Counted from the first letter of the stretch, positions 39,561-58,162 are shown. The stretch is DNA of 64,000 nt from Protofrankia sp. CiT1 (GCF_917627385.1 NZ_CAKJTL010000192.1:1-64000); one strand, 5' to 3'. Made by a program: numbers and translations. The notes: generated by a model not told the origin, from the sequence alone.

Positions 39561-39713
39561 ATGAAGAAGCTCGCACCGGTGTGCGCAATCGCGTTTGTGA
39601 TCTTCTATGTTGCGAACACACCTACTGACGCGGCCAGTCTGGTCCAGTCGACGGTCTGTCTGCTCGGGAACATCGCGGACGGAATCTCGCACTTCGTCAC
39701 CGCCGTCGCATGA
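39561..39713 (+). CDS. 50-aa secreted or membrane peptide at the edge of the secretion cluster
   Basis: The peptide begins MKKLAPVCAIAFVIFYVANTPTDAASLVQ, a short signal-like hydrophobic segment, followed by a second mildly hydrophobic part (TVCLLGNIADGISHFVTAVA). GCGAGGTCTGGC precedes ATG 39561. Tiny proteins of this kind often flank actinobacterial transfer or secretion genes. It converges with the NlpC/P60 gene, 14 bases away. The role is unknown. Confidence 0.55.
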   Translation: MKKLAPVCAIAFVIFYVANTPTDAASLVQSTVCLLGNIADGISHFVTAVA

Positions 39714-39727
39714 GAAGCCCCGCACAC

Positions 39728-40726
39728 TCACGGACCGGCGAGCGGACGTGTCACCGCCACGATCGACGTCCAGTCCGACAGGTCCGATTCGACGACTCCC
39801 CAGCGAGCGCCCTTCGCCGCGATCACCCGGCCGTCACCGACGTACATCCCGACATGGCCAGGTGCCACGGGCGTACCGTCGGCGCCCGGGATGAACAGCA
39901 GGTCGCCGGGCTGGGGATCAACCCCGGACACCGACGGACCAGCCCGCATCTGGTCAACGGTCACCCGCGGGATCGACACCCCGATCTGCGCGTACGCCGC
40001 CTGCACGAGCGACGAGCAGTCCCAGGCGTCCGGCCCAGTCGCGCCCCACACGTACGCCTTGCCGAGCTGGGAGCGCATGAATGCCACCACCGGAGCGACG
40101 GCGGTGGCCGACACCGGCGCCCCGGTGGCGACGGCGTCACCGTAGACCTGCGCCAACGCGAGGATGGTTCGTACGTAGTTGCGGGTTTCCGGGTAAGGCG
40201 GAAGACCAGCGTAGGCCAGCACGGAGCCGGGCCCCGCGTTGTAGGCCGCGAGCATGTTCTCCTGCGAATCGCCAGGCACGGACGCCACGGACGCGGCCAC
40301 CTCGCAGTCATAACGGGCCGCGGCCGGGATGGCGTCAGCTGGATTCCACACATCCCCATGGCCATGGATCGCCCAGGTCCCGGGCATGAACTGGGCGATC
40401 CCCATCGCGCCCACGCCGGACTGAGCGGTCGGGTTGAAGCCGGACTCCTGATGCAGCTGGGCTGCCAGGACGGCCGGGGTGACCTCGTCGCAGCCGGCGT
40501 TGTTCGCCGCTTCGGTGATCATGGGCAGGTACTCGGGCGGGATGCCATCCCCGTTGGTGATGACCCGGCTCCGCCCAGATCCGTTGTTCCCGATGAACGG
40601 CCCAGCGATGATCACAACAATCGCCACGACCACGAAGACAAACGCGATGACGGTGCCCGTGAGACCGACGCCTGTCCAGATCATCCACCGCCGCCGGCTA
40701 CGTGCCCGGTCCGCTCCCGACACCAT
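39728..40726 (-). CDS. Bifunctional cell-wall hydrolase: lytic transglycosylase plus NlpC/P60 peptidase
   Basis: The 332-aa protein has one N-terminal membrane anchor (about 16-42), an SLT domain with catalytic Glu94 (LHQESGFNP...GAMGIAQFMPGTW) and a C-terminal NlpC/P60 domain with Cys237 (DAWDCSSLVQAAY) and His291 (PGHVGMYVGDG). It should cut both glycan and peptide of the wall, as VirB1-like enzymes do to let a secretion channel through. It starts 3 bases after the upstream lipoprotein stop, so it ends a three-gene minus-strand operon. Confidence 0.92.
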   Translation of the reverse strand: MVSGADRARSRRRWMIWTGVGLTGTVIAFVFVVVAIVVIIAGPFIGNNGSGRSRVITNGDGIPPEYLPMITEAANNAGCDEVTPAVLAAQLHQESGFNPTAQSGVGAMGIAQFMPGTWAIHGHGDVWNPADAIPAAARYDCEVAASVASVPGDSQENMLAAYNAGPGSVLAYAGLPPYPETRNYVRTILALAQVYGDAVATGAPVSATAVAPVVAFMRSQLGKAYVWGATGPDAWDCSSLVQAAYAQIGVSIPRVTVDQMRAGPSVSGVDPQPGDLLFIPGADGTPVAPGHVGMYVGDGRVIAAKGARWGVVESDLSDWTSIVAVTRPLAGP

Positions 40727-40729
40727 CGT

Positions 40730-41407
40730 TTACCGGCCCGGCGCATCGCCGTAGGAGTTTGCGAGATCCGCTCCGGCCACCAGCCAGGTGCGGTCGGGCT
40801 GGCGCAACAACGTCAGCAGCGGGTTCGACACGGTCTCCACCCGGTCACCGGTGTGGTCACTCACAGTCGTGCGACGCACGTTCAGCAACAACACCACCCG
40901 GCCGGTGGCCTTGGTGTCGACACCGCCGAACGAGGATGTGGCCAATACCACGACCCTGGACCGGGTGCCGGCCGCCTGCAGGTCGAACCAGGCCCGGTCC
41001 GCTCCCGACGCGGCGCCTTCACCCAGGCCGTCCCCGCCGAGCTGGGCGAAGAAGTCCGGGGTCATACAGTTGCGGGCGCGCGCCAAGCCCGCGTTCGGCC
41101 CGCTGTCGGCCCGCGCGTCAAAGGACTGCCAGCGAACGAAACAGTCCGCGGCCACGCTTGCGGGATCATAGGTATCCAGCGGAGTGGGGGCCGGTGGTGA
41201 GGCAGTGGCGAGAGGAGGGCCGGGCGGTATGTTCGCGGCCGGTGGCGGCCCGGTCACGGGTGGGCCGGTGGTGGCTCGCGCCGTAACGTCACGGATCGCC
41301 GAACAGGCCGACATAACACCACCCAGCAGCACCAGCGCGGTCACAATCACGATCATCCTGGACGCCTGCCGGGACAGCGTCGACTCGACGCGCGAACCGG
41401 GAGACAT
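40730..41407 (-). CDS. Lipoprotein of the secretion cluster
   Basis: The 225-aa protein begins MSPGSRVESTLSRQASRMIVIVTALVLLGGVMSAC, where the lipobox marks the lipidated Cys. A Pro-rich linker follows, then a domain with a pattern seen in small outer-face T4SS proteins of actinobacteria (DCFVRWQSFDARADSGPNAGLARARNCMTPDFFAQL, then RTWLVAGADLANSYG). Its ATG shares one base with the stop codon of the HTH gene (TGATG), giving tight coupling. It may be a VirB8- or TcpC-like component; that is inference from fold-like pattern and place. Confidence 0.7.
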   Translation of the reverse strand: MSPGSRVESTLSRQASRMIVIVTALVLLGGVMSACSAIRDVTARATTGPPVTGPPPAANIPPGPPLATASPPAPTPLDTYDPASVAADCFVRWQSFDARADSGPNAGLARARNCMTPDFFAQLGGDGLGEGAASGADRAWFDLQAAGTRSRVVVLATSSFGGVDTKATGRVVLLLNVRRTTVSDHTGDRVETVSNPLLTLLRQPDRTWLVAGADLANSYGDAPGR

Positions 41408-41625
41408 CACTCCCGGCCGTCCAGCCAGTCCCGGACCCGGCCGCGGCGGACACGCCACTGGTGACCTATCTTGCGGGCCGGGATCTCCCGTTCAGACAGG
41501 AGCTTCAGCACCGTACTCTCCGAGAGCCGCAACCACGCGACAAGCTCGTCGACCGTCAGCACGTCATCGTCCGCGGGATCCCTGCCTGCCGCGAACGCCG
41601 CCACCGGGACGCCTTCCTGTGCCAC
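41407..41625 (-). CDS. Excisionase-type (MerR-like) helix-turn-helix protein
   Basis: The 72-aa protein contains the excisionase-family pattern VLTVDELVAWLRLSESTVLKLLSEREIPARKIGHQWRVRRGRVRDWLDG. GTG 41625 is preceded by GGAAGGGGG, which supports it over a longer frame to 41682. Such proteins act as transcription regulators or recombination directionality factors. With no integrase here it more likely regulates the two divergent halves of the secretion cluster, whose shared promoter region lies just upstream. Confidence 0.8.
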   Translation of the reverse strand: MAQEGVPVAAFAAGRDPADDDVLTVDELVAWLRLSESTVLKLLSEREIPARKIGHQWRVRRGRVRDWLDGRE

Positions 41626-41709
41626 GCGACGACCCCCTTCCCGAGCACATCGTCGCTGGCGCCGGAAGTTACACCCATGCAAGCCACCGTGACGAGTCCT
41701 GAAGGGGGC

Positions 41710-41738
41710 TTGTCATACTTGAACTGCTCGTGTTACAT
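41710..41738 (+). promoter_or_regulatory. Possible promoter of the plus-strand secretion operon
   Basis: TTGTCA (41710-41715) and TTACAT (41733-41738) are spaced by 17 bases, a loose match to the housekeeping -35/-10 pattern, in the divergent region between the HTH gene and the ParA-like gene. The match is partial and by eye only. Confidence 0.25.
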
Positions 41739-41825
41739 CGATCCGTTCAAAGCAGAAACCAACCAACCACAAGTAGCGGTAATGGGCATCAAGCAGCCGG
41801 AGACTACCACGGAGGTCGACAGCGC

Positions 41826-43991
41826 GTGACCGATGTGTCGCAGGGACCGTACGATGAGGACGGTGACGCACGTCCCGTCTCGTTGATCGGCGCCCGGATA
41901 CCCGCGTCGACCCCACGTCCAGCCTCGACGACCCGTGGCACGCCCCCCACCGAGCCGATCCCGACGCCCCGATCCGCAACCGCGGCTGGCGCCGGCGCTG
42001 GTGCGGACACGGCGAACGGCCGGATGGCCGGGCGTCGACGTCGCCGCTTCCGTGGCGGCCCGACCGACGACAGCCCCGCTTCGGTCGACGATCCCCGCCA
42101 AGCCGAGACATTCCTGCTACAGGACGAGACGGCTCAGACACAAAAAGCCACAGAGCCCACACCTGCCGAAGTGATCGATGCCCCTGGCGGGATCGGGCCC
42201 GCGATCCCTGAACAGACAGCGGACCGTGAGCGGGTAGCGCCACAGGCGGAAGCGACGGCGGTCCCGCCTGTGGCGCTGCCCCCGCCCACTACCGTGACGC
42301 CGACAGCCCCCACGGTAGTGGCCCGACCATCCGCCGAGCCGAATTCGTCACCCCCTCCAGCGGACCCGGATGCCGCCGAAGGCCTGCCCACGGCCGTGCG
42401 TCGGGGCAGCCAGCGGCGACGTGAGCGTGATTTCTCCGCGGCACCGGAGGCCCGGATCCCCGGGCCGTTGAGCGGGCGCCGCGGGCGCGACAAGCCGCGG
42501 AGGCCGAACGGGACCACGACCGACGCCCAGGCACTGGCGATGGAGACCGCCGGATCCGGCGCGGCGGAATCCGACGAGCCCATCGGACCGCCCGGTCAAC
42601 ACGTGGACGAGGCCGCGGGCCCGCTGGCTGCCCCGGCCGGGCAGAAGCCCTCAACAGGATCGACAGCGGAGCAAACGCGCCTTCCCGCGGTGCCCGCACC
42701 CCGGGCCAGCCAGGACCTGTGGCCGTGGCAGGAGCCATGGGCAGACGTCACCGCCCTGGAACCGTGGGAGGAGATTCCTGTCCGCGAGTCCCTCGCGGAC
42801 AGGGCCGCCGCGCCGTTGGCGGGCTCCTGGCGGGTGGCGATCGCATCACTGACCGGCGGCTCGGGCCGTACCACCGTCACAGCGATGATCGGTCTGACTC
42901 TCGCGGGCATCCGCGGTGAGCCCGTGCTCGCCGTAGATCTCTGCGACGATCTGGAACACACAGCGACCCCGATGGGCCTCGCCCCGGACAGCACATCCGG
43001 GATGTCGCTCGCGGACCGTGTCGGCGCATACCCATCGGCCACTGTCAGTGATCTCGTCGCGGACGCCATCTCCTACCGGGCCCGTCGGGGTGGAGCGACT
43101 CGGCCGGTCAGCGAACTGCGCTGGCTGATCAATGGTGGCGCCGACGGAACCTATCTGAGCGGGGACGCCGCGGGTCTGGACGTCCTGCCTGCCTGCCGGC
43201 CAAGCGAACCGGCAGCGCCGGCAGCTCCCCGGTCAGGCAAAGCACGTGTTACCACCTCAGCGCCGACCGACCAGGTCGCGGCACCCCCGCCCGCGCTGGT
43301 GCCAGCTGGGATGCCCGGCCCGCTCACCCCCCAGGTACTCGCCTCAGCCTTCGCCACGCTGGGAGTCGCGTACCCGCTGGTGCTCGTCGACACCCCACTC
43401 GACTGGAACTCGCCGCTGGCTTCGATCACACTCGGCGATGCCAGAGTCATCGTCCTGGTCGTACCAGCACTTCCCGGTGATCTCACCGAAGCCGCGGCCT
43501 CGTTGCGTGCCTCAGGCGGTCTGCGGGCAGACCACGGCGGCCCGCCTCCAGCGGTGATCGTCGCAGCCGTATCGGTCCGCCGGGGGCGATGGTCACCGCA
43601 GACCCGGTCGGCCGCGGCCAAACTAGCTCGACGGGTGGATGCGATAGTCCGTATCCCTTATGACGCGCGGCTGGACGACACTGTGACAGACGTAGCTCCC
43701 GGCCGTCCGGGAAACGGCCCCAGCCGTAGGGACAACGCTGGCCGGGGACAGCGCAACAGCGTGCCGATTCCGTTCTTCCGGCTGCGGTGGCGCAGCCGGC
43801 GGGCCTTCCTCCGACTGGCCGCGACCGTTGTCGACGCCTGCCGTGACCAGGATGACATCGGCGTCGACAACGATGAGATCGGCGACACAGCCACCGCGGC
43901 AACTTCCGTCACGCATGATCGGATTGCAGCTCCAGGCGTATCATCCGACGATCTGCGCGCCGACCTGGCCCCAGGAAGGGAACAGCAATGA
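41826..43991 (+). CDS. ParA/MinD-like ATPase of the secretion cluster with a Lys-less Walker A
   Basis: The 721-aa protein has a long disordered N-terminus (to about 335, rich in Pro, Ala and Arg), then a MinD/ParA-type domain (WRVAIASLTGGSGRTTVTAMIGLTLAGIRGEPVLAVDLC, later LVLVDTPLDWNSPLA and IVLVVPALPGDLTEAAASL). The deviant Walker A reads GGSGRTT (344-350), with Arg348 where Lys is expected, so ATP hydrolysis is doubtful. GGAGG lies 10 bases before GTG 41826. It opens a six-gene plus-strand run. Similar proteins accompany actinobacterial T4SS-like and type VII loci. Confidence 0.8.
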   Translation: MTDVSQGPYDEDGDARPVSLIGARIPASTPRPASTTRGTPPTEPIPTPRSATAAGAGAGADTANGRMAGRRRRRFRGGPTDDSPASVDDPRQAETFLLQDETAQTQKATEPTPAEVIDAPGGIGPAIPEQTADRERVAPQAEATAVPPVALPPPTTVTPTAPTVVARPSAEPNSSPPPADPDAAEGLPTAVRRGSQRRRERDFSAAPEARIPGPLSGRRGRDKPRRPNGTTTDAQALAMETAGSGAAESDEPIGPPGQHVDEAAGPLAAPAGQKPSTGSTAEQTRLPAVPAPRASQDLWPWQEPWADVTALEPWEEIPVRESLADRAAAPLAGSWRVAIASLTGGSGRTTVTAMIGLTLAGIRGEPVLAVDLCDDLEHTATPMGLAPDSTSGMSLADRVGAYPSATVSDLVADAISYRARRGGATRPVSELRWLINGGADGTYLSGDAAGLDVLPACRPSEPAAPAAPRSGKARVTTSAPTDQVAAPPPALVPAGMPGPLTPQVLASAFATLGVAYPLVLVDTPLDWNSPLASITLGDARVIVLVVPALPGDLTEAAASLRASGGLRADHGGPPPAVIVAAVSVRRGRWSPQTRSAAAKLARRVDAIVRIPYDARLDDTVTDVAPGRPGNGPSRRDNAGRGQRNSVPIPFFRLRWRSRRAFLRLAATVVDACRDQDDIGVDNDEIGDTATAATSVTHDRIAAPGVSSDDLRADLAPGREQQ

Positions 43992-44404
43992 TCGTCCAAG
44001 CCACGACCGCGCAGGTAAGGGTCATCCTGGCTCAGGTCCAGATCAAGCCTGACGACTCCAAAGCGCCGGGGATCAACGCGCTCAAGGACCTCGTCAACGG
44101 TCTCGCCGCCTACGCCGTGATCGCGGCCGTCGCCGCCGTACTCCTCGGTGGCATAGCCTGGGCACTCGGCGAACGGATGGGCCTCGACCGTGCCTCGGCA
44201 ATCGGCAAGGGTGGCGTACTCGCCGGCTTCGGGCTCGCCTTCCTCGTCGGGGCCGCTGCCGCCGTCGTCAACTTCTTCCTCGCGACCGGAGCGACCGCGT
44301 CGTCCGGCACCCCCGACCAGCCCAAAGCGCTGGACAGGCCGGCTGCTGTGCGAATGCTCGACCCTGGGGACCACAACCAGGCGCCCTCGCCATGGCCGTT
44401 CTGA
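43988..44404 (+). CDS. VirB2/TrbC-like two-span membrane protein
   Basis: The ATG overlaps the previous stop (ATGA). The 138-aa protein has two membrane segments (LAAYAVIAAVAAVLLGGIAWALG and AIGKGGVLAGFGLAFLVGAAAAVVNFFLA) separated by a short polar loop, the layout of VirB2-type pilins and of Gram-positive T4SS small membrane subunits. Length fits. The assignment rests on topology and gene order rather than on a conserved motif. Confidence 0.65.
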   Translation: MIVQATTAQVRVILAQVQIKPDDSKAPGINALKDLVNGLAAYAVIAAVAAVLLGGIAWALGERMGLDRASAIGKGGVLAGFGLAFLVGAAAAVVNFFLATGATASSGTPDQPKALDRPAAVRMLDPGDHNQAPSPWPF

Positions 44405-44503
44405 CCGGTTCTTGGCATCCCGACCGGCTGATATTGGGATAATGGGTCGACTGTCGTCGCCAGAGCAGTCACGTCCAAAGCCGTCACGCCGAAGGAGGGG
44501 ACG

Positions 44504-45307
44504 TTGGTCAACCAGGATGGTTGGGCCACACGCCGTCTCGCTGGCCTCTTGGCGGCCACCGGTGTGGTGACGATGATCGCTGGTGTTCTCCTCGGCCGCT
44601 ACGCCTTTCCCGCGCCGGACGCGACTGCCACCCAGCCGCGAGGGGCCGAACCTGTGGGACGCATGCGGCCGAGTGCCGAGGCCTCCAGCACCGTCGTGGC
44701 CAGACCCAGCGAGGGGAGCGGCACCGGGACCAGCCCGCCCCAGGCCCCGACACAGACCGGGCGTCAACTGCCGGGCATGCCGACTCGCATCAACGAGTTC
44801 GGGATTCCAGTCGGCTACCCCCACACCGAAGCCGGAGCCATAAGCGCCTGCGGTAATTACGTTTCAGCAATTCAAGATTCAAGCATGCGAAGCGGAGGGG
44901 GAATTCGCCTCATATTCAAATCAATTGCCCTAGAATCCAGCATTGAACCCCTGTCAAAAAAAATAATAAACTCTAATGCAGAAATAGAAAAAAAGTTCTC
45001 CATTTCTTCAATAAATGATCCGAAATTTGGCTTCTCGCTCCGAGTTGTTGGATATAAAACTATTTTCAATAAAAACGATGAGGTGACCGTCTCAATTTGG
45101 TCCACATCTTCAATTGGAGTTTACGGCGACAACAATTCAGACCTGTCTCCACAAGAAAAATGGGGGACGGATATTTGTAAAGTATCATGGAGCAGTGAAG
45201 ATTGGAAACTTTCCGAAGCAACCGACGGGCCGAGCACACCTCCTATCACAAGTAGGGAAGCAGAAGCAATTCAACGGTTTACCTACATAGGAAGGCCGAC
45301 AACGTGA
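44504..45307 (+). CDS. Membrane-anchored outer protein with an AT-rich, apparently foreign C-terminal half
   Basis: The start is TTG 44504, 3 bases after GAAGGAGGGG. The 267-aa protein has an N-terminal membrane segment (LLAATGVVTMIAGVLLGRYAF), a Pro/Ser linker and, from residue about 115, a globular domain. The DNA changes abruptly: up to about 44840 it is GC-rich, then AT-rich to about 45250 (the line 44941-45000 has 17 G or C in 60), with Ile/Lys/Asn/Ser-rich codons. It ends in a GTGA overlap with the next gene, so it is still part of the operon. The AT-rich domain may be a recent exchange or kept AT-rich for silencing. Function unknown. Confidence 0.75.
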   Translation: MVNQDGWATRRLAGLLAATGVVTMIAGVLLGRYAFPAPDATATQPRGAEPVGRMRPSAEASSTVVARPSEGSGTGTSPPQAPTQTGRQLPGMPTRINEFGIPVGYPHTEAGAISACGNYVSAIQDSSMRSGGGIRLIFKSIALESSIEPLSKKIINSNAEIEKKFSISSINDPKFGFSLRVVGYKTIFNKNDEVTVSIWSTSSIGVYGDNNSDLSPQEKWGTDICKVSWSSEDWKLSEATDGPSTPPITSREAEAIQRFTYIGRPTT

Positions 45308-46650
45308 GCGCGGTGGCCGCACGAAGCGGACAACTCCTCGCAATCGGATTCAATCCTCTTGCTGGTATCAGGGATGCCGTTTCCGATAATGGTGGCAATT
45401 TCCTGGGGTCGGTGGGCGCCGCATTCGCGAATATGGCGGCGGATCTTTCCTCGTCCGTGTTCAGCTTCGCCGCCCAGAAAACCGCGATCGACCTGAATCA
45501 GGATTACGTCGTCAGGAACTACAATATCGTCTTTGGCGTGGCGATCCTGGTTGTCACAGGCCTGTTCATGTGTTCCTGCATTATCGGCGCCGTGCGCGGG
45601 GACCCGTACATTCTCGGCCGCGCTCTCGCTTCCACCGGTACCGCGATCTTCGGTTCCTTCATCGTACTGGCCCTGTTGCAGATGGTGCTTTCCGCCAGCG
45701 ACGGCATCTCCGAGGCATTCGGCGACGGCGCACCGCTGGGCGCGAGCCTGGTGGCCCAGCTCCGAGCTCTCCCACAACAGGGAAATTTCGCTCTCGACAT
45801 GGTTCTGTCGCTGCTTGTCGCACTGTTCTCGTTCGCGCTCTTCCTGGTTCTCTACATCCGCGAGGTGGCTATCATCGCGGTCGCGGTTTTCATCCCGCTG
45901 TACCTGGCCGGGCAGCCGGCGATGTCGACCCGCAACTGGCTGAAACGGGCCGCGGAGATTCTCGCCGCGCTCATTTTCACCAAGCCCGTCATCTATGCGA
46001 TTTTTACCTTGGGCGCGAGCATCGCCAGCGACTCAACCGGATCGGCCACGGACCAGACACTGACGATTCTCAGCGGTATTGTGATCATGGCTGCCGCGGT
46101 GTTCTCGCCACTTGCGCTCCTCTATGTGATCGGAATGGCCGACGTCCAGGTGATGCAGGCGATCGGCACGGCGGGCAAGCGCGGTACAGCGAGTTTCGGC
46201 CATGGCGCGGGCGCACTGCTCGGCTCATCATCGCGGGAAACCTTCCGGGGGATCGGCGGGCGGTTGCAGAGCCGGCAGCGTAACGGTCCGGGAGCGGAGA
46301 CGGGCCAACCCGTAACCGGGGATCTCACTCCGGTCGGTGCCATGGCCGGGGCGCGCAACCACCGTGGCTCCGGCGTCGGCCCGGCAACGCGTGTCGGTAC
46401 CCCGACCGCTCGAGCAGGTCGAGCCGGTGGTGGCCAGCCAGCCCCGGCCAGCTCCGCGGGTGGTTCCTCCGTAGCCGCCCCCGCGAGGGAACGCGCGGGC
46501 ACCTCCGCGCGCTCCCCACGCACCCCGGTCCCCCGAGCTGTCCCGCCAAGAGCTGCCCCATCCACCGGATCGCCCGCGATGTCGCCATCGTCGGCGTCTA
46601 AGATGAGCACCCCGACGCCACCGATCCACCCCACCGCCGGAAGAAGCTGA
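45304..46650 (+). CDS. VirB6/TrbL-like polytopic channel protein
   Basis: GTG 45304 overlaps the preceding stop. The 448-aa protein has about seven to eight membrane segments between residues 75 and 295 (for example IVFGVAILVVTGLFMCSCIIGAV, MVLSLLVALFSFALFLVLYIREVAIIAVAVFIPLYLAG and IVIMAAAVFSPLALLYVIGM), followed by a Gly/Pro/Ala-rich tail. The order and the RNWLKRAAEILAALIFTKPVIYAIF stretch fit TrbL/VirB6 inner-membrane channel subunits of actinobacterial T4SS-like loci. Confidence 0.85.
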   Translation: MSAVAARSGQLLAIGFNPLAGIRDAVSDNGGNFLGSVGAAFANMAADLSSSVFSFAAQKTAIDLNQDYVVRNYNIVFGVAILVVTGLFMCSCIIGAVRGDPYILGRALASTGTAIFGSFIVLALLQMVLSASDGISEAFGDGAPLGASLVAQLRALPQQGNFALDMVLSLLVALFSFALFLVLYIREVAIIAVAVFIPLYLAGQPAMSTRNWLKRAAEILAALIFTKPVIYAIFTLGASIASDSTGSATDQTLTILSGIVIMAAAVFSPLALLYVIGMADVQVMQAIGTAGKRGTASFGHGAGALLGSSSRETFRGIGGRLQSRQRNGPGAETGQPVTGDLTPVGAMAGARNHRGSGVGPATRVGTPTARAGRAGGGQPAPASSAGGSSVAAPARERAGTSARSPRTPVPRAVPPRAAPSTGSPAMSPSSASKMSTPTPPIHPTAGRS

Positions 46651-46657
46651 GCGGGGC

Positions 46658-48160
46658 GTGGCCGCCGAACGCAGTTACCGTTTCGGCCCGCTGGAACGCG
46701 GCGGGATCCTCCTCGGCATGCGCTGGCCACAGCTCGGGCTGATGGTCGGAGTAATGTTGTGCATCCTTGGAGCGCTGCGGTCCCCGGTCATACTCGTTCC
46801 TGGCTGGATCGCACTGGCGGGCCTACTGGGGTTCGTCGCATTCGTTCGCGTCGACGACCGTAACCTCGACCAGTGGGTGCCGATCCTTTTCGGTTTCACG
46901 ATGCAGAAGGTGATGGGCGAGACGGTGTTCCGTGGGGCGTTGTTCCGGACCGGCGACAACGCCGACCACCTCTCGAAGACCGCGTTGCCAGGGCCGTTGT
47001 CGTCCCTGGTGATGCTGTCGGTACCGGTCGGTAACGGCCGTTACGTGGCAGTTGTGAAGGACGCCAGGCGGGGGACGTTCACCGCTGTGTTGCAGGTGCA
47101 GGGCAGCCAGTTCGCATTGCTTGAGTCCGGCGACCAACAGGCCAGGGTGGACGCCTGGGGCGAGCTGCTGGCGGGGTTGACCGTCGGCGGTGGGCGGCTC
47201 TCGCGCATCCAGTGGCTGGAGCGCACCCTGCCGGACTCCGGTGACCAGCTGCAACGGCACTGGCGGGTGCGAGGGCATCATGACAGCTCGTGGGCAGCCC
47301 AGGCGTACCAGGAAGTTATCGACGCGGCCGGCCCGGTGGCACGGCGCCACGAGACCTTCCTGTCGTTCCAGCTACGCACACGTGACGTGCGCCGGGCGAT
47401 CCAGCGCGCCGGGAACGGTGATCACGCGGCCTGTACTGTGCTGCTCGGTGAGCTGCGAACCATGGAGGCCGCGCTGGCCAGGGCATCCATCAACACGGTC
47501 GGCTGGCTGCCACCGCGCGCTCTGGCCGCGGTGATCCGCACCACCTACGACCCGTACTCGATCGAAATGATCGACGCACGCGGTGGTGCCGCGGCGGACC
47601 GGGCAGGCGGGCTCGCGGGGCTGCCCTCGGGCATCGATCCAGCGATCGCCGGCCCGGTACGCGCGGTCGCCGCCTGGGATCACTACCGCACTGACTCCGG
47701 CTTCCACACCACTTATTGGATCAATGGCTGGCCGCGGGTCCCATCTCCCGCGGCGTTCCTCGCGCCGCTGCTCATGGAAACAACCTGCCGGCGGACAGTC
47801 TCTCTCGTCGTCGAGCCGGTGCCAGGCCGCAAGGCCGAGAAGGCGGTCAACCGCCGCCGGATGGCTCATCTCGGCGAGCAACAGATGAGAGACAAGGTTG
47901 GCAAGGTAACGACCCAGCGTGACATGGCGGAAGCCTCCGAAGTGGAACGCCGCGAGCAGGAGCTCATAGCCGGGTTCGGCGCATTCCGCTTCCATGGATT
48001 CGTGACCGTCTCCGCGGACGATCTGGACGGCTTGGCCGACGCGTGCGGCGAAGCCGAAACCTTGGCGTCGCGCAGTCGGCTGGAGATGGTCCGGCTGGTA
48101 GGCGAACAAGACCAGGGGTTCAGCGTCGCCGCGCTTCCGCTGGCAGTAGGGGTGTCATGA
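46658..48160 (+). CDS. SCO6880-like T4SS protein (PrgI plus VirB4-N-like)
   Basis: The 500-aa protein has two N-terminal membrane segments (LGLMVGVMLCILGALRSPVILVPGWIALAGLLGFVAFVRV) like PrgI/TcpE subunits, then a soluble domain resembling the N-terminal part of VirB4 (ERTLPDSGDQLQRHWRVRGH, TTYWINGWPRVPSPAAFLAPLLMET). It matches my recollection of the SCO6880 family. It has no P-loop and precedes the VirB4-like ATPase with an ATGA overlap, so the VirB4 function may be split over two proteins. GTG 46658 is 7 bases after the previous stop codon. Confidence 0.8.
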   Translation: MAAERSYRFGPLERGGILLGMRWPQLGLMVGVMLCILGALRSPVILVPGWIALAGLLGFVAFVRVDDRNLDQWVPILFGFTMQKVMGETVFRGALFRTGDNADHLSKTALPGPLSSLVMLSVPVGNGRYVAVVKDARRGTFTAVLQVQGSQFALLESGDQQARVDAWGELLAGLTVGGGRLSRIQWLERTLPDSGDQLQRHWRVRGHHDSSWAAQAYQEVIDAAGPVARRHETFLSFQLRTRDVRRAIQRAGNGDHAACTVLLGELRTMEAALARASINTVGWLPPRALAAVIRTTYDPYSIEMIDARGGAAADRAGGLAGLPSGIDPAIAGPVRAVAAWDHYRTDSGFHTTYWINGWPRVPSPAAFLAPLLMETTCRRTVSLVVEPVPGRKAEKAVNRRRMAHLGEQQMRDKVGKVTTQRDMAEASEVERREQELIAGFGAFRFHGFVTVSADDLDGLADACGEAETLASRSRLEMVRLVGEQDQGFSVAALPLAVGVS

Positions 48161-49959
48161 CGGTCGACCGGTCAGACGGAGCCAGAACGGACCGAGAAGC
48201 CCAGTATGAGCAGGAGGAGTCACGCCGGAGTGAACGTGCGGCGGCGCGGGCTGAACGAGCTGCCGTGGGAGCCGAACGTGCGGCGATCCGACGGGCCCGA
48301 ACGGCGCTGCGCCGGGGCGAGCAGCCGCCGCGGCTGGCCGGGCCCCACGCCGGCAGGCTTTTCCACCGGCTACGGCTGCCATCCCATCTGGAGACGACCG
48401 CTCAGATCGCCGGCATCTACCCGTTTGTTGTGGATGCCGGACTCAATGCCCCCGGAATGTACATCGGACGCCATGTCTGGTCGGGTGACTCCTTTGTCTT
48501 CGACGTGTTCGAGCTCTACCGCCAACAGGTCATCGAGAACCCGAACTTCGCGGTGTTCGGCTCGGTCGGATCACGCAAGTCCTCCCTGCTCAAGACCCTG
48601 ATCTCACGGGGAGCCGCGTTCGGTTACCAGGCTGCCGTTCCCTGCGATCCCAAAGGGGAGTACACCAGGCTCGCACGACGGCTCGGCTGCGAGCCGACCT
48701 ACATCGGCCCGGGACTGTCAACCCGGCTCAACCCGTTGGACGCTCCGCCTCGGCCGCCCGGTATGACGGACGGTGACTGGGCCCGGGAACTCAAGCGGGC
48801 ACGTTCGGCACTGCTATCCTCACTGATCGAAACCGCGAAAGGAGTGCCGCTCACTCCGTCGGAGCACACCGCCGTGGATCTCGCTCTCGATGTCGTGACC
48901 CGACAGATCACCGGTGCCTCCACTGATCGGCAGGCGGTCCCGCTGCTGCCGCACGTCCTGGACGCCATGACGAACCCGACGGACGCCGACTGCTCGGGGC
49001 TGCCGGTAACCGCTACCGAACTGCGGGATTCTTCTCGGGACGCGACGCTGACGCTGCGCAGGCTCACTCATGGCGCGCTCGGCGGGCTCTTCGACGGCCC
49101 GACCACGTCCCCGCTGGACTTCGATCGGCCGATCGCCGTGCTCAACCTCGAACGGGTCCAGGGTTCTGACGAAATGATCGCATTGATCATGACTTGCGCG
49201 CAGGCCTGGATGGAAGCGGCGCTGATGCGTCAGGATGGCGTGCAGCGTTATGTCGTCTATGACGAGTGCTGGCGACTGATGCGCTTCGCGGGTCTGGTCC
49301 GACGGCTGTCCGCGCAACAAAAGCTCGCCCGCCAGTGGGGCTGCGCGAACGCGATCGTCGCGCACCGGATCTCAGACCTGCTCTCGGCGTCGCCGGATTC
49401 GGTCGAGGTGGCCAAAGGTCTGCTCGCCGAAACGGCGATTCGCATCCTGTACAAGCAGGCATCAGATCAGATCCCGGAAACCCAGCGGGCGCTCGGCCTT
49501 ACCGACGTCGCCTCGGACATGCTGCCAAGACTCGACCCTGGCTTCGCTTTGTGGCTCATTGGTAACCGTGCGTTCTACGTCGAACATATCGTCGGCGATC
49601 TGGAGATTCCCGTCGTCCTCAACGGCTCAAAGATGCACGGCGAGGTCGACAATATCAACCTCTTTCCTGATGATCTCGACCCAGATCTGCTGGACGACTA
49701 CGGCTATCCGGACCAGGTCGACCACGAGGGTCGTGATAACGACCCCGCCTACGCGAGCAGCAGCGGTCCAGCTGCCGACCAGCACGGCGAAGGCGACCCC
49801 CAGTACCTGGAGAAGCGCCGGGCTGGCAGCTTCGGGGCACCACACCGGTACGGACCGGACAGATTCACCGTCGACACTCCGGCCTCAGACCAGAATAGGG
49901 CCGCCACCGAGGAAGTCATGGATACCTTCCCCTTTGGCCCGCTTTCCCGGGAGATCTAG
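48157..49959 (+). CDS. VirB4-like secretion ATPase
   Basis: The 600-aa protein starts with a charged helical region (QEESRRSERAAARAERAAVGAERAAIRRART) and then the ATPase domain. Walker A is GSVGSRKSS (135-143), with Arg140 before the Lys where Gly is usual, and Walker B is YVVYDECWRLM with Asp369-Glu370. Downstream motifs (ARQWGCANAIVAHRISDLLSASPDS) fit VirB4/TraC ATPases that power pilus or channel assembly. It appears to be the only member of the cluster with a near-normal nucleotide site. Translation is coupled to the SCO6880-like gene. Confidence 0.9.
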   Translation: MTVDRSDGARTDREAQYEQEESRRSERAAARAERAAVGAERAAIRRARTALRRGEQPPRLAGPHAGRLFHRLRLPSHLETTAQIAGIYPFVVDAGLNAPGMYIGRHVWSGDSFVFDVFELYRQQVIENPNFAVFGSVGSRKSSLLKTLISRGAAFGYQAAVPCDPKGEYTRLARRLGCEPTYIGPGLSTRLNPLDAPPRPPGMTDGDWARELKRARSALLSSLIETAKGVPLTPSEHTAVDLALDVVTRQITGASTDRQAVPLLPHVLDAMTNPTDADCSGLPVTATELRDSSRDATLTLRRLTHGALGGLFDGPTTSPLDFDRPIAVLNLERVQGSDEMIALIMTCAQAWMEAALMRQDGVQRYVVYDECWRLMRFAGLVRRLSAQQKLARQWGCANAIVAHRISDLLSASPDSVEVAKGLLAETAIRILYKQASDQIPETQRALGLTDVASDMLPRLDPGFALWLIGNRAFYVEHIVGDLEIPVVLNGSKMHGEVDNINLFPDDLDPDLLDDYGYPDQVDHEGRDNDPAYASSSGPAADQHGEGDPQYLEKRRAGSFGAPHRYGPDRFTVDTPASDQNRAATEEVMDTFPFGPLSREI

Positions 49960-50026
49960 CTTTTCGAGAAGTCCAGCTGCCCGGGATGGCCAGAACATCG
50001 GCTCTGGTTTCCGTCACGCCTGACTG

Positions 50027-50458
50027 TCACTGTCGGCCGCCATAGGGCGGGTTCTGCTCGCGGGGATCCGCCGATGGCGACGCCCACGGTTGTTGCTGTT
50101 GCGCCTGCCAGCCTGCCTGCGGGGCCTGCCAGCCGTCCGACGGAGGAAGCTGCTGCTGTGCGGGTGGGTATGCGTTTGGATCCTGCCAGCCGCCTGGTGG
50201 CATGTACCCACCCGGCGCCGACTGATTGACGTTCACCTGTACCGGGGTGCCACCGCTGCTCACGGCGAGGGCAATGGCGACGACCCAGCCCACCAGCGTC
50301 CAGCCGAGGAAAAGATTGATCACGAAGACCGAAGCGACCTGCCGCTTGCGCACCACGGCGATAATTGTCGGAATAAAGTAAAAGGCGATGCCGAAGACGA
50401 CAGCGAGCAGTATCACGACTCCAGCAGCGGCGCCGGAACCACCTTCAGCGACGTCCAT
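50027..50458 (-). CDS. Superinfection-immunity-like small membrane protein
   Basis: From ATG 50458 (GGGGGAG just upstream) the 143-aa protein has two membrane segments in the pattern of the Imm_superinfect family (GVVILLAVVFGIAFYFIPTIIAVVRKRQVASVFVINLFLGWTLVGWVVAIALAV), named after phage T4 Imm, which blocks entry of DNA from a second phage. A Gln/Pro/Gly-rich tail follows (APQAGWQAQQQQPW). Similar proteins are widespread outside phages, so the immunity role is not assured. It lies 2 bases from the end of the VirD4-like gene region, between VirB4 and VirD4. Confidence 0.75.
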   Translation of the reverse strand: MDVAEGGSGAAAGVVILLAVVFGIAFYFIPTIIAVVRKRQVASVFVINLFLGWTLVGWVVAIALAVSSGGTPVQVNVNQSAPGGYMPPGGWQDPNAYPPAQQQLPPSDGWQAPQAGWQAQQQQPWASPSADPREQNPPYGGRQ

Positions 50459-50538
50459 GACTCCCCCGCGTTCATAAATACGACAGCCTGACCGTATGAT
50501 TTGAGTCACTGTAGCAGGGTTCGGTCGGAAAAGCACCG

Positions 50539-52500
50539 CTACCCGTTATCCGGCTCCCACAGCAGCCCCAGATTGATCGCCTCGGGCTGATCGCCAGCAT
50601 CACCTGCCGTCAGGCCCGGTGGAACGGACTGCCCAGTGATCATGGGCAGGACTGCTGGTCGCCGGGAAGCTGACGGTACCGCTGGGCGAGCGCTGGACGC
50701 GACCCTGGGTAGGAGAACAATTCCAGGGTTGCAGTCGCCGAGTGCGGCACGGCGCTCGCCCAGCGACGAGTCGACCAGCATAAAAGCGGTCGGTGGGAGC
50801 TGTTGGATCTGTGTCGGCTCAACACTGAACTCGTAGACCCGTTGCATGATCGAACCGTCTTGCTGGGAGTCGGTGACCGACAGGCTCTCGGTATCCTCCC
50901 AGAACGCTGACTGGGAGACCGAAACCGAGCGGTTCCAACCACCCGATCTCCCGCCCTTGCCTCGCGAACCGCTTCTGCCTTCGGTTTCAGAAACTGTAAC
51001 GCTCCCACCCGCGCTGCTTGACGTCCCTGTGGTGAGGCTGCTGCCAACCTGCCGGGTAATCTGGGAGAAGACGAACTTGTGCCCGCGACCGACGAACTCG
51101 GCAGCGGCCTCGGCCTCCCTTGCATTTCCGAGCTGCATGATAAGCGTGGCGCTGTCACCAGTACCGATCAGGCGCTCCGCGTCTTCCGCCAGATGTTCGA
51201 ACAGGTTGACAAGACGAATGCCGGCATTGGCGGCATGTCTGGCCATGCTTTCCAGCGCGGGTAGACCCATCCGGTCCCCTCCGGCAACCACCAGCATGTC
51301 CCGGGAAACATCGTCCCGGCGGCGCCGGAGCCGGTGCAGCACGATCTGGAACAGCACCTGATCGATGAGCTCCTTACGAGCGGCGGAAGTGTCACGGCTC
51401 GACGTCTCCATGACGCGGAGCCCGGATAGCGGCCACCACGATGGCGCTGTGCCCACCGCCGCGGTCTCGTCCCCCTCTGCGAGCCGTTCCAGACAAGCCC
51501 TCAGGTAATAGATTGCCTGTTGAATTCGTTCGCTGCCGCCCAGGGCATCCAGTCGGCTGGCGATGGCGTCCCTTTCCCCGGGTGAAAGGGCATCAGGGCC
51601 GTCCAGTTGGTCACGGCCCTGCAGCACCCGCAGGCCCGCGGCAAGCCGGATGAAGGTAAGCGGCGGGTCCAGCCTGGTGGTGATGGTCGTGAGTATCTCG
51701 GCGTCGAGAAGCCGAATTGCCGGGTTATCGCTCCCCGGGCGGAGCGTGTCAACGGCATTCGCGAGGAGTTCGGCAACGTCCTCAGGGCCGATGTCCCGCA
51801 GAAGCCCGAGCCGGCCTGTATCAGCAGGAAGATCATCACCGGTAACCGGGAAACCAGCCGCAGTGGCGAGCTGGGCAAGACCGCCGCCGATACCCCGCTC
51901 GCTGAAGTCGAGCAGGAGAATACCACCGCCAGACGATAGAACCGAAGAGCCGACGGTCGCCAGCAGACTTGTCCACCCCTCACGAGTGCCGCCGCAGACA
52001 TCTATCCGGCTCGCGGTCGACCGAGGCGCGAGCGGATGGAACAAGGGCGCTTCCGCCCGTCGTGCCTGCTCGGCCGCCTCGTGGCTCTCCACCGCGGCCC
52101 GCCAACCAGCGGTGGCCGACTGGTATCTCTCCCACTCAGCGTCACGACGTTTTTGCCACTCGGTCTTTTCAAAAATAATTTTTCTTTTAAAAAAAATAAT
52201 CCGGAAAACCAAAAATCCAATCCATGCTATTGACCCTAGTACGAACATCCACAATCCATTATAGCGAACAAATGTCAGGCCAATCAAAAATATAAAAACG
52301 GGAAATATTAATGCCCTAGGAAGTTTCTGCATACGCTTTTCAAGATTATTTTCATATTTCTTGATGTCTGGCGGGGGCGGCTCATGCCATACTGGCGGCC
52401 GATCATGATCGGGGTGCAGATTCATGCCGGGATCGACATACTCCCAGCCCCACCGTTCCTCCGGAACGAACAGTCGTCGGGTAAGTTCAGAACCGGGCAT
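50539..52500 (-). CDS. VirD4/TraD-like protein with degenerate P-loop
   Basis: The 653-aa protein has two N-terminal membrane helices (about 60-105) and a large cytoplasmic domain with coupling-protein character: LLDFSERGIGGG, later FVGRGHKFVFSQITRQVGSSLTTG and VEPTQIQQLPPTAFMLVDSS. The place of Walker A reads CGGTREGWTS, without the GK[ST] core, so ATP use is doubtful. The region coding the membrane helices (about 52150-52340) is very AT-rich (16 G or C in 52141-52200), unlike the rest of the gene. ATG 52500 is the first possible start after an in-frame stop; no strong ribosome site is seen. Confidence 0.8.
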   Translation of the reverse strand: MPGSELTRRLFVPEERWGWEYVDPGMNLHPDHDRPPVWHEPPPPDIKKYENNLEKRMQKLPRALIFPVFIFLIGLTFVRYNGLWMFVLGSIAWIGFLVFRIIFFKRKIIFEKTEWQKRRDAEWERYQSATAGWRAAVESHEAAEQARRAEAPLFHPLAPRSTASRIDVCGGTREGWTSLLATVGSSVLSSGGGILLLDFSERGIGGGLAQLATAAGFPVTGDDLPADTGRLGLLRDIGPEDVAELLANAVDTLRPGSDNPAIRLLDAEILTTITTRLDPPLTFIRLAAGLRVLQGRDQLDGPDALSPGERDAIASRLDALGGSERIQQAIYYLRACLERLAEGDETAAVGTAPSWWPLSGLRVMETSSRDTSAARKELIDQVLFQIVLHRLRRRRDDVSRDMLVVAGGDRMGLPALESMARHAANAGIRLVNLFEHLAEDAERLIGTGDSATLIMQLGNAREAEAAAEFVGRGHKFVFSQITRQVGSSLTTGTSSSAGGSVTVSETEGRSGSRGKGGRSGGWNRSVSVSQSAFWEDTESLSVTDSQQDGSIMQRVYEFSVEPTQIQQLPPTAFMLVDSSLGERRAALGDCNPGIVLLPRVASSARPAVPSASRRPAVLPMITGQSVPPGLTAGDAGDQPEAINLGLLWEPDNG

Positions 52501-54164: not shown

Positions 54165-55001
54165 TCAACGCCGCAGCAGGCCCCGCAACCTGGACCTGGC
54201 CGGCCAGGTCTGCGCCGGGCCGTTCACCGGATAGGACGGAAACACCCGCTCGGCGGCGTCCACCAGCATGGCGACGTCCAACGGCTTGAGAAGAACACCG
54301 GCTGTGAGGATGTAATCAGCGACCCCCGCTACCGGCAGCAATACGACATCGTCGAACACAGCGAGTCCATGGGGCGGCGCGGCACGCGAGAACGCGACGA
54401 CCGGTTGGACCGTGACCTGCCAGCCCTCCGGCAGTTCAGCGGCCAGCTGATCGGTAATTTCTGTACCCATCCAGGCAACCATTTCGATCATGGGCTGCAA
54501 TGGCACCCGACCCGCCCACAGCCCGGCCCGGTTCTGCCGGAACGGCCCACGGTGCGCGTCCGTCTCGACCAGCCACGGTCCGGATGGTCCGATGACCAGA
54601 TGATCGATATTGCTGGCGGAACCAGCAAGAGATCGATCATGAAGGACGGTGTACCCGGCGCGGGTGAGCCGCTCAAGCGCGCGTGCGGTACGCCGTTCGG
54701 CTTCGGCGTCCTCCCGCCACGACTCGATTTCCGGCGGGGAGCGATAGAACCGGACTGCCGCGACAACCAGCACAAGCATAACAAAACAGATAACTAGTTG
54801 CACTATCAAAGATACGGCCAGACTCAGCAGTGCGCCGAACACGCTGACCACAATCGCGGCAAGGGCGGCAACCACACCGGCGATCGCCGCCGCCCTGCCT
54901 ACCCGGTCTTTACGTTCGACCGCGTAGAGCTGCCGGCAGCGCAGATACTCCGCCATGGCCGAGCGACCTGGCCATTGTCCATGTGACGCCCCGGTCATCA
55001 T
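54165..55001 (-). CDS. NERD-domain membrane protein (nuclease-related)
   Basis: The protein of about 278 aa has two membrane helices (AAIAGVVAALAAIVVSVFGALLSLAVSLIVQLVICFVMLVLVVAAVRFY) and then a NERD domain (ERRTARALERLTRAGYTVLHDRSLAGSASNIDHLVIGPSGPWLVETDAHRG). NERD is distantly related to restriction-type nucleases; here the usual (E/Q)xK core after the Asp reads ETDAH, so the catalytic Lys seems absent. The start is uncertain: ATG 55001 has GGAAGACG upstream, while ATG 54956 and 55049 are alternatives. The role is unknown; some relatives lie near mobile or defence genes. Confidence 0.75.
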   Translation of the reverse strand: MMTGASHGQWPGRSAMAEYLRCRQLYAVERKDRVGRAAAIAGVVAALAAIVVSVFGALLSLAVSLIVQLVICFVMLVLVVAAVRFYRSPPEIESWREDAEAERRTARALERLTRAGYTVLHDRSLAGSASNIDHLVIGPSGPWLVETDAHRGPFRQNRAGLWAGRVPLQPMIEMVAWMGTEITDQLAAELPEGWQVTVQPVVAFSRAAPPHGLAVFDDVVLLPVAGVADYILTAGVLLKPLDVAMLVDAAERVFPSYPVNGPAQTWPARSRLRGLLRR

Positions 55002-55341
55002 CGTCTTCCGGCCGACCAGATGACGGCCAAACCGGCCCGCGTGGCGCAAGACCCCTCACCTCCGCTGTAGACAAACCGGCCAAGCGCCGACCAGTCACAG
55101 CGCCGCGGGCTGGACGCGCGCGTCAACCATCACGGAGCGTGCCGCAAGGCCATCACCGGCCGCCACAACAAATCAGTTACACAGTGACCACCATTCCACA
55201 TCCTTGCGTGTGGCCAAGGCCCGGGGAACCCTGAAGGTCGAGCTCCCGCGCGGCTGTATCGGGCTACGACGTAACGGCACAGCAGCGACCCGCACCGACC
55301 CGCGGCCAGCGACAGCTGGCCGGTCCGGACCTGGAGGGTTC
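55002..55341. other. Intergenic region before egtA
   Basis: No gene was found. The region separates the divergent NERD and egtA genes and should contain the promoter of the ergothioneine operon. The reading frame of egtA stays open to 55204, but these codons lack support as coding sequence. Confidence 0.5.
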
Positions 55342-56796
55342 ATGACACGGACACAGTCAGGGAAGCCACAAGAAGATCAGTATGGCACCGACGACGCGAT
55401 CCGGTCAGCGGCCGATGTCCATCGCTACGCACGCCTGACCTGCCTGACCGATCAGCCACCGGGAAGCGTCGGCATCGAGACCGAGTGGTTCGTCGTCGAC
55501 ACCGAGTCCGTGTCACGCCCAGTGCCCCCCGCCCGAACGATGGCGGCGCTCACGGACGCCGCGGCCGGCAGCTCACATGATCATCGGGACAGTCCATCCA
55601 ACGGGGCAACCGGCGTCCCAGGACATACGACCCTGCCGGGCGGTACCCGGATCACCTTCGAACCCGGTGGCCAGCTTGAGCTGTCAGCTCCGCCGCTGCC
55701 GCTTTCCGACGCCCTGGCGCGAACGGCCGCCGACCTCGCCCGGATCCGGTCGATGCTCACCGGCGCCGGCCTCGCGCTCGTCGGGATGGGCACCGACCCC
55801 CTCCGGCCACCGCATCGGCATCTCACGACGTCCCGTTACCAGGCAATGGAACGGTACTTCCAAGCCGGCGGCGGGTCAGCGGGCATGATGATGATGTGCT
55901 CTACCGCATCCGTCCAGGTCAACCTGGACGCGGGCAGCACGGCCCAGTGGTCCGGGCGATTCGAGCTGGCACACACCCTGGGCCCGGCTCTGGTGGCCAT
56001 GTTCGCAGCCTCCCCGATGCTGGCGGGGATGGCCACCGGCTACCGCTCCACCCGGCAGGCACTGTGGTCGAAGATCGACCGGAGCCGGACCCGGCCGGTG
56101 GCGACCGCTCACCAACCCGATCCGGCGACAGCCTGGGCGGACTACCTCCTGGCGGCGAGGGTCATGCTGCTGCGGGATCCCGACGGCGGATTCCAACAGC
56201 CCCCTGTCGCGACGACGTTTGGCGAGTGGGTGGCTGGCGATAGCCAGCTGCCACGGATACCGACAGTAAGAGATTTGATTTACCATGCGACCACTGTGTT
56301 CCCACCGGTGCGCCCACGTGGCTGGCTGGAGCTGCGTTACCTCGACGCCACCCCGGCGGGGAACTGGCCGGTGGTGGTCGCCGTCACCACCGCCCTGCTC
56401 GACGATGCACGTGCCGCTGACATCGCGGCCGACGTATGCCTGCCCGTCGCCCACGAGTGGGCCACGGCTGCGTTGCGGGGGCTGCGTGACGCAGCGCTGC
56501 ACAAGGCCGCCAGGGCATGCGCGGGCGCGGCCCGCGACGCTCTTGGCCGCATGGGCGCCGCAACGTCCCTCCTCACGGCCGTCGACGCGTATTTCGACGC
56601 CTACGTGGAGCCGGGACGCTGCCCCGCCGACGATCTCATCGACCGGCTGGCCGAGGTCGGGCCGGCTGGTCTGCTGCGCGCCGAGATCGATCGGAACATG
56701 ATCGAAAATAACAACAGGGCCCCTGGGAACGATGGATGCCCACAGGCAACGACACAGGTCGCGGAACCCACTACCACGGATGTGATCGCACTGTGA
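55342..56796 (+). CDS. egtA: Glutamate-cysteine ligase EgtA
   Basis: Makes gamma-glutamylcysteine, the sulfur donor of bacterial ergothioneine synthesis. The 484-aa enzyme shows GSVGIETEWFVVD, HTTLPGGTRITFEPGGQLELSAPPLPL and ARPRGWLELRYLDATPAGNWPVVVAV-type blocks of actinobacterial EgtA. GGAGGG stands 8 bases before ATG 55342. Its stop overlaps the GTG start of egtB (GTGA), so the operon is translationally coupled. The C-terminal 30 residues are variable. Confidence 0.95.
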   Translation: MTRTQSGKPQEDQYGTDDAIRSAADVHRYARLTCLTDQPPGSVGIETEWFVVDTESVSRPVPPARTMAALTDAAAGSSHDHRDSPSNGATGVPGHTTLPGGTRITFEPGGQLELSAPPLPLSDALARTAADLARIRSMLTGAGLALVGMGTDPLRPPHRHLTTSRYQAMERYFQAGGGSAGMMMMCSTASVQVNLDAGSTAQWSGRFELAHTLGPALVAMFAASPMLAGMATGYRSTRQALWSKIDRSRTRPVATAHQPDPATAWADYLLAARVMLLRDPDGGFQQPPVATTFGEWVAGDSQLPRIPTVRDLIYHATTVFPPVRPRGWLELRYLDATPAGNWPVVVAVTTALLDDARAADIAADVCLPVAHEWATAALRGLRDAALHKAARACAGAARDALGRMGAATSLLTAVDAYFDAYVEPGRCPADDLIDRLAEVGPAGLLRAEIDRNMIENNNRAPGNDGCPQATTQVAEPTTTDVIAL

Positions 56797-58157
56797 CAGC
56801 AGAAGAAGGCCCACGACCGGCGGATATCGCCCAGGCGCTCGCGGACAGCAGGACGCGGAGCCTGGCCTACACCGATCTTGACGATGCCGACCTGTGGCGC
56901 CAGCACTCACCACTGATGTCGCCCCTGGTCTGGGACCTCGCCCATGTCGGCAACTACGAAGAGTTGTGGCTGCTGCGGACAGCAGCGGGGCGGCAACCGC
57001 TGCGGCCGGGCATCGACCACCTGTACGACGCGTTCCGTCATGCTCGGGCGGACCGGCCTGCCCTGCCGCTGCTCGACCCGGCACAGGCTCGTTCCTATCT
57101 GGCCGAGGTCCGCGGCAATGTCCTTGACGGCTTGGAACGCCTCGCCCCGGACGCCCTGCGCGGGCCGCTCGCGCGTCCCGCGCTGCTGGCGGGCGGCTTC
57201 GTCTACGGACTCGTGCTCCAGCACGAGCACCAGCATGACGAGACGATGTTGGCCACCCATCAGCTCCGGGTGGGTCCTCCGGTCATCGGTGACGCCGGCC
57301 CGGCCCGGGTTCCACCGGCCGGGCGGCCGGCACCAGCGCCAGAGATGCTGGTGCCGGCCGGCGAGTTCACGATGGGCACCAACGGCGACACGCCCGGACA
57401 TGCCTGGGCCTACGACAACGAACGGCCCGCGCACCGGGTGTACGTCCCCGCGTTCTTCATCGACACGTTGCCGGTGTCGAACGCGGCGCAGGTGGCGTTC
57501 ATCGACGCCGGTGGCTATGACGATGAACGCCTGTGGTCGGCGTCGGGCTGGGCCTGGCGATGCGAAGCGGGCCTGCGGGCGCCAGAGTTCTGGCGCCAGG
57601 AGGGAAAGAGCTGGGTGCGGCGCCGTTTCGGCCGCGAGGAACCCGTCCCGATGGATGAACCCGTACAGCATGTGTGCTGGTACGAAGCGCAGGCGCACGC
57701 GCGCTGGGCCGGTCGGCGGCTGCCCACGGAAGCGGAGTGGGAAAAGGCCTGCGCGCACGATCCCGTCACCGGGCGTTCGCGGCGTTTTCCCTGGGGGGAC
57801 AGCGGCCCGACGCCGGAACAGGCCAACCTGGACCATGCCGCGTCCCGTCCGGCGCTACTTGGGGCGTACCCGGCCGGAGCCAGCGCGTACGGCGTCGAAC
57901 AGATGATCGGTGACGTGTGGGAGTGGACAGCCAGCGATTTCACGGGTTATCCGGGATTCACCGCATTCCCGTACCGCGAGTACAGCGAGGTGTTCTTCCC
58001 CCGGACGTCCCCGAACGCCTACAAGGTGCTGCGCGGCGGGTCCTGGGCCACCCACCACAGCGCCATCCGGTCAACCTTCCGCAACTGGGACCACCCGATC
58101 CGTCGCCAGATCTTCACCGGCTTCCGCCTCGCCCGCGACGCCGAGATGGAAGGCTGA
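56793..58157 (+). CDS. egtB: Sulfoxide synthase EgtB
   Basis: Non-haem iron enzyme that joins gamma-glutamylcysteine to hercynine with oxygen. The 454-aa protein has a DinB-like N-terminal domain and a C-terminal formylglycine-generating-type domain (FTMGTNGDTPGHAWAYDNERPAHRVYVPAFFIDTLPVSN ... GDVWEWTASDFTGYPGF ... VLRGGSWATH). All three iron ligands are visible: His51 (WDLAHVGNYEE) and the His144/His148 pair of QHEHQHDET. The start is GTG 56793, overlapping egtA. The next gene begins at the stop. Confidence 0.97.
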   Translation: MTAEEGPRPADIAQALADSRTRSLAYTDLDDADLWRQHSPLMSPLVWDLAHVGNYEELWLLRTAAGRQPLRPGIDHLYDAFRHARADRPALPLLDPAQARSYLAEVRGNVLDGLERLAPDALRGPLARPALLAGGFVYGLVLQHEHQHDETMLATHQLRVGPPVIGDAGPARVPPAGRPAPAPEMLVPAGEFTMGTNGDTPGHAWAYDNERPAHRVYVPAFFIDTLPVSNAAQVAFIDAGGYDDERLWSASGWAWRCEAGLRAPEFWRQEGKSWVRRRFGREEPVPMDEPVQHVCWYEAQAHARWAGRRLPTEAEWEKACAHDPVTGRSRRFPWGDSGPTPEQANLDHAASRPALLGAYPAGASAYGVEQMIGDVWEWTASDFTGYPGFTAFPYREYSEVFFPRTSPNAYKVLRGGSWATHHSAIRSTFRNWDHPIRRQIFTGFRLARDAEMEG

Positions 58158-58162
58158 TGCGG

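Follow-up and report, generated by a model that had tools for sequence, protein, structure and literature searches.

Almost all type IV secretion systems (T4SSs) known from Gram-positive bacteria move DNA, and whether they do other jobs is a long-standing question (PMC12857230). The closest studied system to the locus presented here is cmdABCDEF of Streptomyces coelicolor (SCO4126-4131), which, according to the parts of PMC2782261 that concern us, encodes a VirB4-like ATPase and five membrane proteins, and whose deletion impairs sporulation and chromosome segregation, raises antibiotic output and leaves the transfer of an SLP2-derived plasmid unchanged. T4SSs working without the coupling protein VirD4 are also known, namely Ptl, Brucella VirB, ComB and Bartonella Trw (PMC12857230). 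In Frankia, a single VirB4-like gene of strain CcI3 (gi 86738757) has been reported as conserved in all three strains, in the region 0.035-0.096 Mbp; the relevant part of that report treats one gene, doubts its role in an export pathway and does not describe a ten-gene unit (PMC2266912). Here we analyse a stretch of 64,000 nucleotides from Protofrankia sp. CiT1, called the window below, in which the original prediction had placed a T4SS-like cluster at 39561-52500. The cluster is real, however its right boundary has to be moved, and gene calling and profile searches of the window give a conserved unit of ten genes at 39561-49959. The reading that we favour, with moderate confidence, is that this unit is a resident (domesticated), non-conjugative monoderm T4SS of Frankiaceae, for which a role in the development of the hyphal envelope would be the likeliest.

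Composition of the ten-gene unit

The ten genes are as follows, in the order of their coordinates, with the evidence for each in brackets.

39561..39713, + strand: single-transmembrane (TM) secreted or membrane peptide, 50 aa (hidden Markov model matches; no Pfam family)
39728..40726, - strand: VirB1-like peptidoglycan hydrolase, TM + SLT transglycosylase + NlpC/P60 (PF00877 1.6e-19, PF01464 1.2e-14)
40730..41458, - strand: VirB8-like lipoprotein, NTF2-like fold (alignment, AlphaFold2 (AF2) model with pLDDT 73, Foldseek)
41407..41682, - strand: HTH_17/excisionase-family DNA-binding protein, helix-turn-helix (HTH) (PF12728 4.3e-11; TIGR01764 above cut-off)
41826..43991, + strand: pseudo-ParA/MinD-like protein with a long low-complexity N-terminus (CbiA 4.9e-4, BcsQ 2.1e-6)
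43988..44404, + strand: DUF6112 two-TM protein in the VirB2-like position (PF19607 8.7e-9; TM prediction)
44504..45307, + strand: CmdE-like TM + NTF2-fold protein, second VirB8-like component (alignment with Streptomyces CmdE, AF2, Foldseek; no family match)
45304..46650, + strand: VirB6-like polytopic membrane protein, SCO6881 family, CmdD position (NF047967 1.1e-14, below that model's curated cut-off; six predicted TMs)
46658..48160, + strand: SCO6880 family, VirB3-like N-terminal TM fused to the VirB4 N-terminal half, CmdC position (NF042935 1.6e-107)
48157..49959, + strand: VirB4 ATPase half, CmdB position (CD1110 family VirB4 3.7e-19 over its C-terminal half)

On the whole, the profile searches bear out the hydrolase, lipoprotein, HTH, ParA-like, VirB2-like, VirB6-like and SCO6880-like products of the original prediction, in the order and on the strands claimed, and they add three genes that it did not name: the CmdE-like gene at 44504-45307, the 50-aa peptide gene at 39561-39713 and a PF14373 gene at 50027-50536, which lies outside the unit. 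The peptide gene is the left edge of the unit, and a peptide of 50-52 aa is found at that edge in 15 sampled Frankiaceae loci. For the predicted VirB4-like protein the ATPase half is confirmed, but VirB4 appears to be split over two genes with its N-terminal half in the SCO6880 protein, since this protein and the 48157-49959 product match successive parts of the CD1110 VirB4 model, the former weakly at positions 205-362 (E 0.08) and the latter at positions 373-729. The P-loop of the ATPase half reads GSVGSRKS, with the lysine kept, and the Walker B motif (YVVYDECW) is intact. In all 20 resident VirB4 copies Arg replaces the Gly before the P-loop Lys, whereas all 37 remaining VirB4 halves in which a P-loop can be recognised keep Gly at that position.

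Two components resemble VirB8 in AlphaFold models built from alignments of window and locus sequences, with modest Foldseek scores in both cases. The lipoprotein matches the IcmL-like structure 5cnl (TMt 0.66), CagV, R388 VirB8 and TcpC, and the CmdE-like protein has an NTF2 fold whose best matches include the VirB8 domain of PrgL. The P-loop lysine is absent from the ParA-like protein in every Frankiaceae copy aligned (n=17), the region reading GGSGRTT in the window and PYSGTTT in most other copies. The HTH_17 protein, a presumed local regulator, is present at 15 Frankiaceae loci. In some Frankiaceae, mobile-type SCO6880 clusters (L173, L174, L175) likewise have a divergent SLT+NlpC gene, along with a CmdE-like gene that matches more weakly. 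Neither part is therefore unique to resident units, and CmdE was dropped as a marker exclusive to resident clusters because mobile Frankia T4SSs have such weaker CmdE-like genes too.

Among the parts by which a monoderm T4SS is recognised, the unit has a VirB4 with P-loop lysine and Walker B, a VirB6-like protein, a VirB8-like protein of NTF2 fold and a VirB1-like hydrolase, and it has no VirD4/TcpA coupling protein. We label it T4SS-type, VirD4-less, because some accepted T4SSs are likewise without a coupling protein.

Distribution, position and mobility

Overall, the resident unit is identified in 33 of 35 Frankiaceae genomes. An SCO6880 match is found in 32 of the 35. G010 is without one and that of G014 belongs to the mobile type, but both of these fragmented assemblies are included by their CmdE-like genes, each above 300 bits. 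The two Frankiaceae in which the unit is missing belong to two other genera and have small genomes, one with a completeness of 63%. In the window genus the cluster is present in all five genomes: in three relatives the whole unit is seen with its flanks, and in the fourth the contig starts inside the ParA gene. Other genera show the identical ten-gene order wherever the locus is complete, and the reading frames are intact in five genera. In four of these genera the unit adjoins a NERD gene and the egtABCD genes; in the fifth (g2) it does not, and two complete g2 genomes carry it at 35 and 42 kb, counted from where the record begins. A resident copy lies at 42 kb in a complete 5.4-Mb genome of the family, and the CcI3 gene gi 86738757 is very likely the same locus, judging from the region given for it in PMC2266912. 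In the SCO6880 tree the resident copies form a single tight, short-branched Frankiaceae clade, apart from the element-type copies that some of these genomes also have, and the inheritance of the unit is consistent with the genera. Its composition is thus kept across Frankiaceae and its position across most of the family. The original prediction had left a choice between a chromosomal machine and one end of a larger element, and proposed synteny across Frankia-type genomes as the check; this check finds a largely stable position and speaks for the resident machine.

SCO6880 is the best conserved gene of the unit, with 94-97% identity within the genus. In comparisons with other genomes, the ratio of nonsynonymous to synonymous substitution rates (dN/dS) lies at 0.04-0.10 in SCO6880 and at 0.10-0.17 in the VirB4 half, and reaches 0.44 in the more variable genes, showing that the core genes are under purifying selection. 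If the unit were what is left of a conjugative element, decaying at its site, this could account for the missing relaxase and coupling protein, the lost ParA lysine and the altered VirB4 P-loop; however, this explanation is largely refuted by the intact frames in five genera, the purifying selection, the fixed gene order and the largely fixed position, and we regard it as very improbable. The SCO6880 genes of G001 and G003, which look frameshifted, were considered as pseudogenes and rejected, the apparent breaks being runs of N at assembly gaps.

The absence of a relaxase and an integrase, first noted for the window, holds further out. Neither TrwC nor PF03432 relaxases have a match in the genome (191 contigs; other relaxase families were not searched), coupling proteins of PF02534 and PF12696 match nowhere in the genome, the unit included, no integrase is found on the 118-kb contig (C191), with fifteen integrase-domain matches on other contigs of the genome, and no long direct (att-like) repeats bracketing the unit were found. 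The marks of an integrative and conjugative element or a plasmid, that is a relaxase, and an integrase with att repeats or a variable position, are thus not seen here. The T4SS gene content and the excisionase-family HTH gene would fit a larger element, integrated or conjugative, with the unit at one end, but this reading is contradicted by the same housekeeping neighbours in four genera together with the results of these searches, and hardly any credence is left to it. We hold it highly probable that the unit is resident and non-conjugative.

The right boundary and the flanking genes

To the right of the unit lie the following features.

50027..50536, - strand: PF14373 superinfection-immunity-like membrane protein, outside the unit (PF14373 1.5e-13)
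50539..52500, - strand: genus-specific protein, formerly called VirD4-like, outside the unit (profile searches, neighbours of homologs)
54165..60056: conserved flank, NERD-domain gene (-) and egtABCD ergothioneine genes (+)

The VirD4 identity proposed for 50539-52500 is rejected, since the product matches no coupling-protein family and the neighbours of its homologs point elsewhere. Its own profile recovers no type IV coupling protein (T4CP), and the CmdA profile does not recover it. The gene is present in 5 of 5 genomes of the genus and at none of the other Frankiaceae loci compared. Homologs on Streptomyces and Nocardia plasmids (L167:10022-15682, L168, L169) adjoin a HerA-like ATPase, whereas the member of the window genus adjoins the T4SS and has no such ATPase alongside; at one plasmid locus an ADP-ribosyltransferase-like gene comes next. 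The family may be a separate conflict system. Because 50539-52500 is not a T4CP, is confined to the genus and has plasmid homologs with HerA-like ATPases, the conserved unit is taken to end at 49959. The PF14373 gene in between is found in the window genome only, among the loci compared.

On the other side, a protein kinase with NHL/SGL beta-propeller repeats (36964-39372) adjoins the unit, and some other genera have partial relatives of it close to the locus. Farther away, the gene at 14186-16777, whose product combines a TIR and an AAA domain, may serve in defence. Two AT-rich patches were noticed by eye, at 44860-45290 inside the CmdE-like gene and at 52130-52400 at the start of the 50539-52500 gene, in a region otherwise of 65-70% GC; the segment 44001-46000 has 59.7% GC.

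Proposed role and comparison with known systems

By analogy with its Streptomyces relative cmdABCDEF, the unit has probably been domesticated for work in the cell envelope or in development. In the mechanism that we propose, a VirB3/VirB4 complex, made of the SCO6880 protein and the separate ATPase half, would power a VirB6-VirB8 membrane channel, for which the SLT/NlpC hydrolase would open the wall, and the HTH protein and the pseudo-ParA would regulate or position the complex. Since no VirD4 gate is detectable, the complex would receive its substrates from the side of the membrane or the wall, or it may have no secreted substrate at all. The most likely role, following Streptomyces CmdA-F, would be in sporulation septation and chromosome segregation, although a cmd-like developmental role, taken by itself, is a tentative suggestion. 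For mycelial actinobacteria at large, here Frankiaceae and Streptomyces, it is finely balanced, leaning slightly towards doubt, whether conjugation machines have been domesticated into resident T4SSs that serve cell development and not DNA transfer, with a coupling protein that is absent or P-loop-less.

The main rival is a VirD4-less protein exporter, working in two steps like Ptl or Brucella VirB and passing Sec-exported proteins to neighbours, the medium or the plant host. Protein export has precedents among VirD4-less T4SSs (PMC12857230), and the unit, having no detectable coupling protein, keeps a wall hydrolase and VirB8-like parts; but no effector-like gene is conserved next to it, and its near family-wide presence would speak against a symbiosis-specific role. 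The T4SS proteins of the Parafrankia exoproteome lend no help either and are set aside, because they appear to be of the CpaF/TadA type and not from the resident cluster. We consider such an exporter unlikely. A ComB-like DNA-uptake or a DNA-release machine is less probable again: H. pylori ComB demonstrates that VirD4-less T4SSs can import DNA (PMC12857230), however none of the genes seen next to the unit supports this role (no search for competence partners was made).

Several points weigh against the domesticated, developmental T4SS that we prefer. An unusual relaxase or coupling protein may still be encoded elsewhere in the 191-contig genome. A shared architecture alone is no proof of a shared function, because plasmid T4SSs have the same b2-b6-SCO6880-VirB4 order. 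The CmdA profile finds no homolog in the Frankiaceae resident loci, and the phylogeny neither unites the Frankia unit with cmd nor excludes their union, their grouping having p 0.185 in the approximately unbiased (AU) test with none of four groupings rejected. The two may go back to one domestication or have been domesticated, perhaps, independently.

A T4SS that is fixed in nearly a whole family, has an altered P-loop in its VirB4 and shows no detectable relaxase or coupling protein provides a defined ten-gene target for non-DNA roles, and ties the question of such roles to a known sporulation phenotype of Streptomyces. If the interpretation is true, there would be a VirD4-less class of T4SS in monoderm bacteria.

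Compared with cmd, the unit has its CmdE, VirB6-like CmdD, SCO6880-like CmdC and VirB4-like CmdB counterparts in the same order, and cmd is chromosomal in all Streptomyces genomes sampled. The Streptomyces loci read CmdF-E-D-C-B-A, with an SLT+NlpC gene nearby on the opposite strand that is a divergent homolog of the Frankia hydrolase, and Streptomyces CmdE aligns with the 44504-45307 protein at 22-24% identity. The P-loop lysine of CmdB is at residue 90 in three of four Streptomyces sequences, in accordance with the passage on CmdB in PMC2782261, and the second lysine given there (404) is not lysine in the copies compared. Streptomyces CmdA is a T4CP relative (PF12696 5.7e-5) whose P-loop is lost (L097, L098, L099, L100), unlike in most plasmid and element relatives; this is not pointed out in the parts of the cmd paper considered here (PMC2782261). 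A functional T4CP P-loop is thus absent in both systems. The Frankia unit differs in missing a CmdA homolog, in having the HTH protein, VirB8-like lipoprotein and pseudo-ParA, in the Arg for Gly of its VirB4 P-loop and in its genomic site. A compact cmd-like set is also found in a third actinobacterial family (G041, L170), together with the divergent SLT+NlpC gene and next to a PhoU/DUF47-like gene that resembles one near Streptomyces cmd.

The SCO6880-type T4SSs of actinobacterial plasmids and elements, for example p1 of Streptomyces angustmyceticus, share with the unit the C40 peptidase, DUF6112, VirB6-like, SCO6880 and VirB4-half genes in the same order, but they also have a T4CP (annotated "type IV secretory system conjugative DNA transfer"), and those relatives that were compared show the canonical P-loop GxxxxGK; the angustmyceticus copy is on a plasmid. 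The VirD4-less systems Ptl, Brucella VirB, ComB and Bartonella Trw resemble the unit in keeping the core VirB parts without a coupling protein, and differ in being diderm systems of other bacterial groups, built from different component families.

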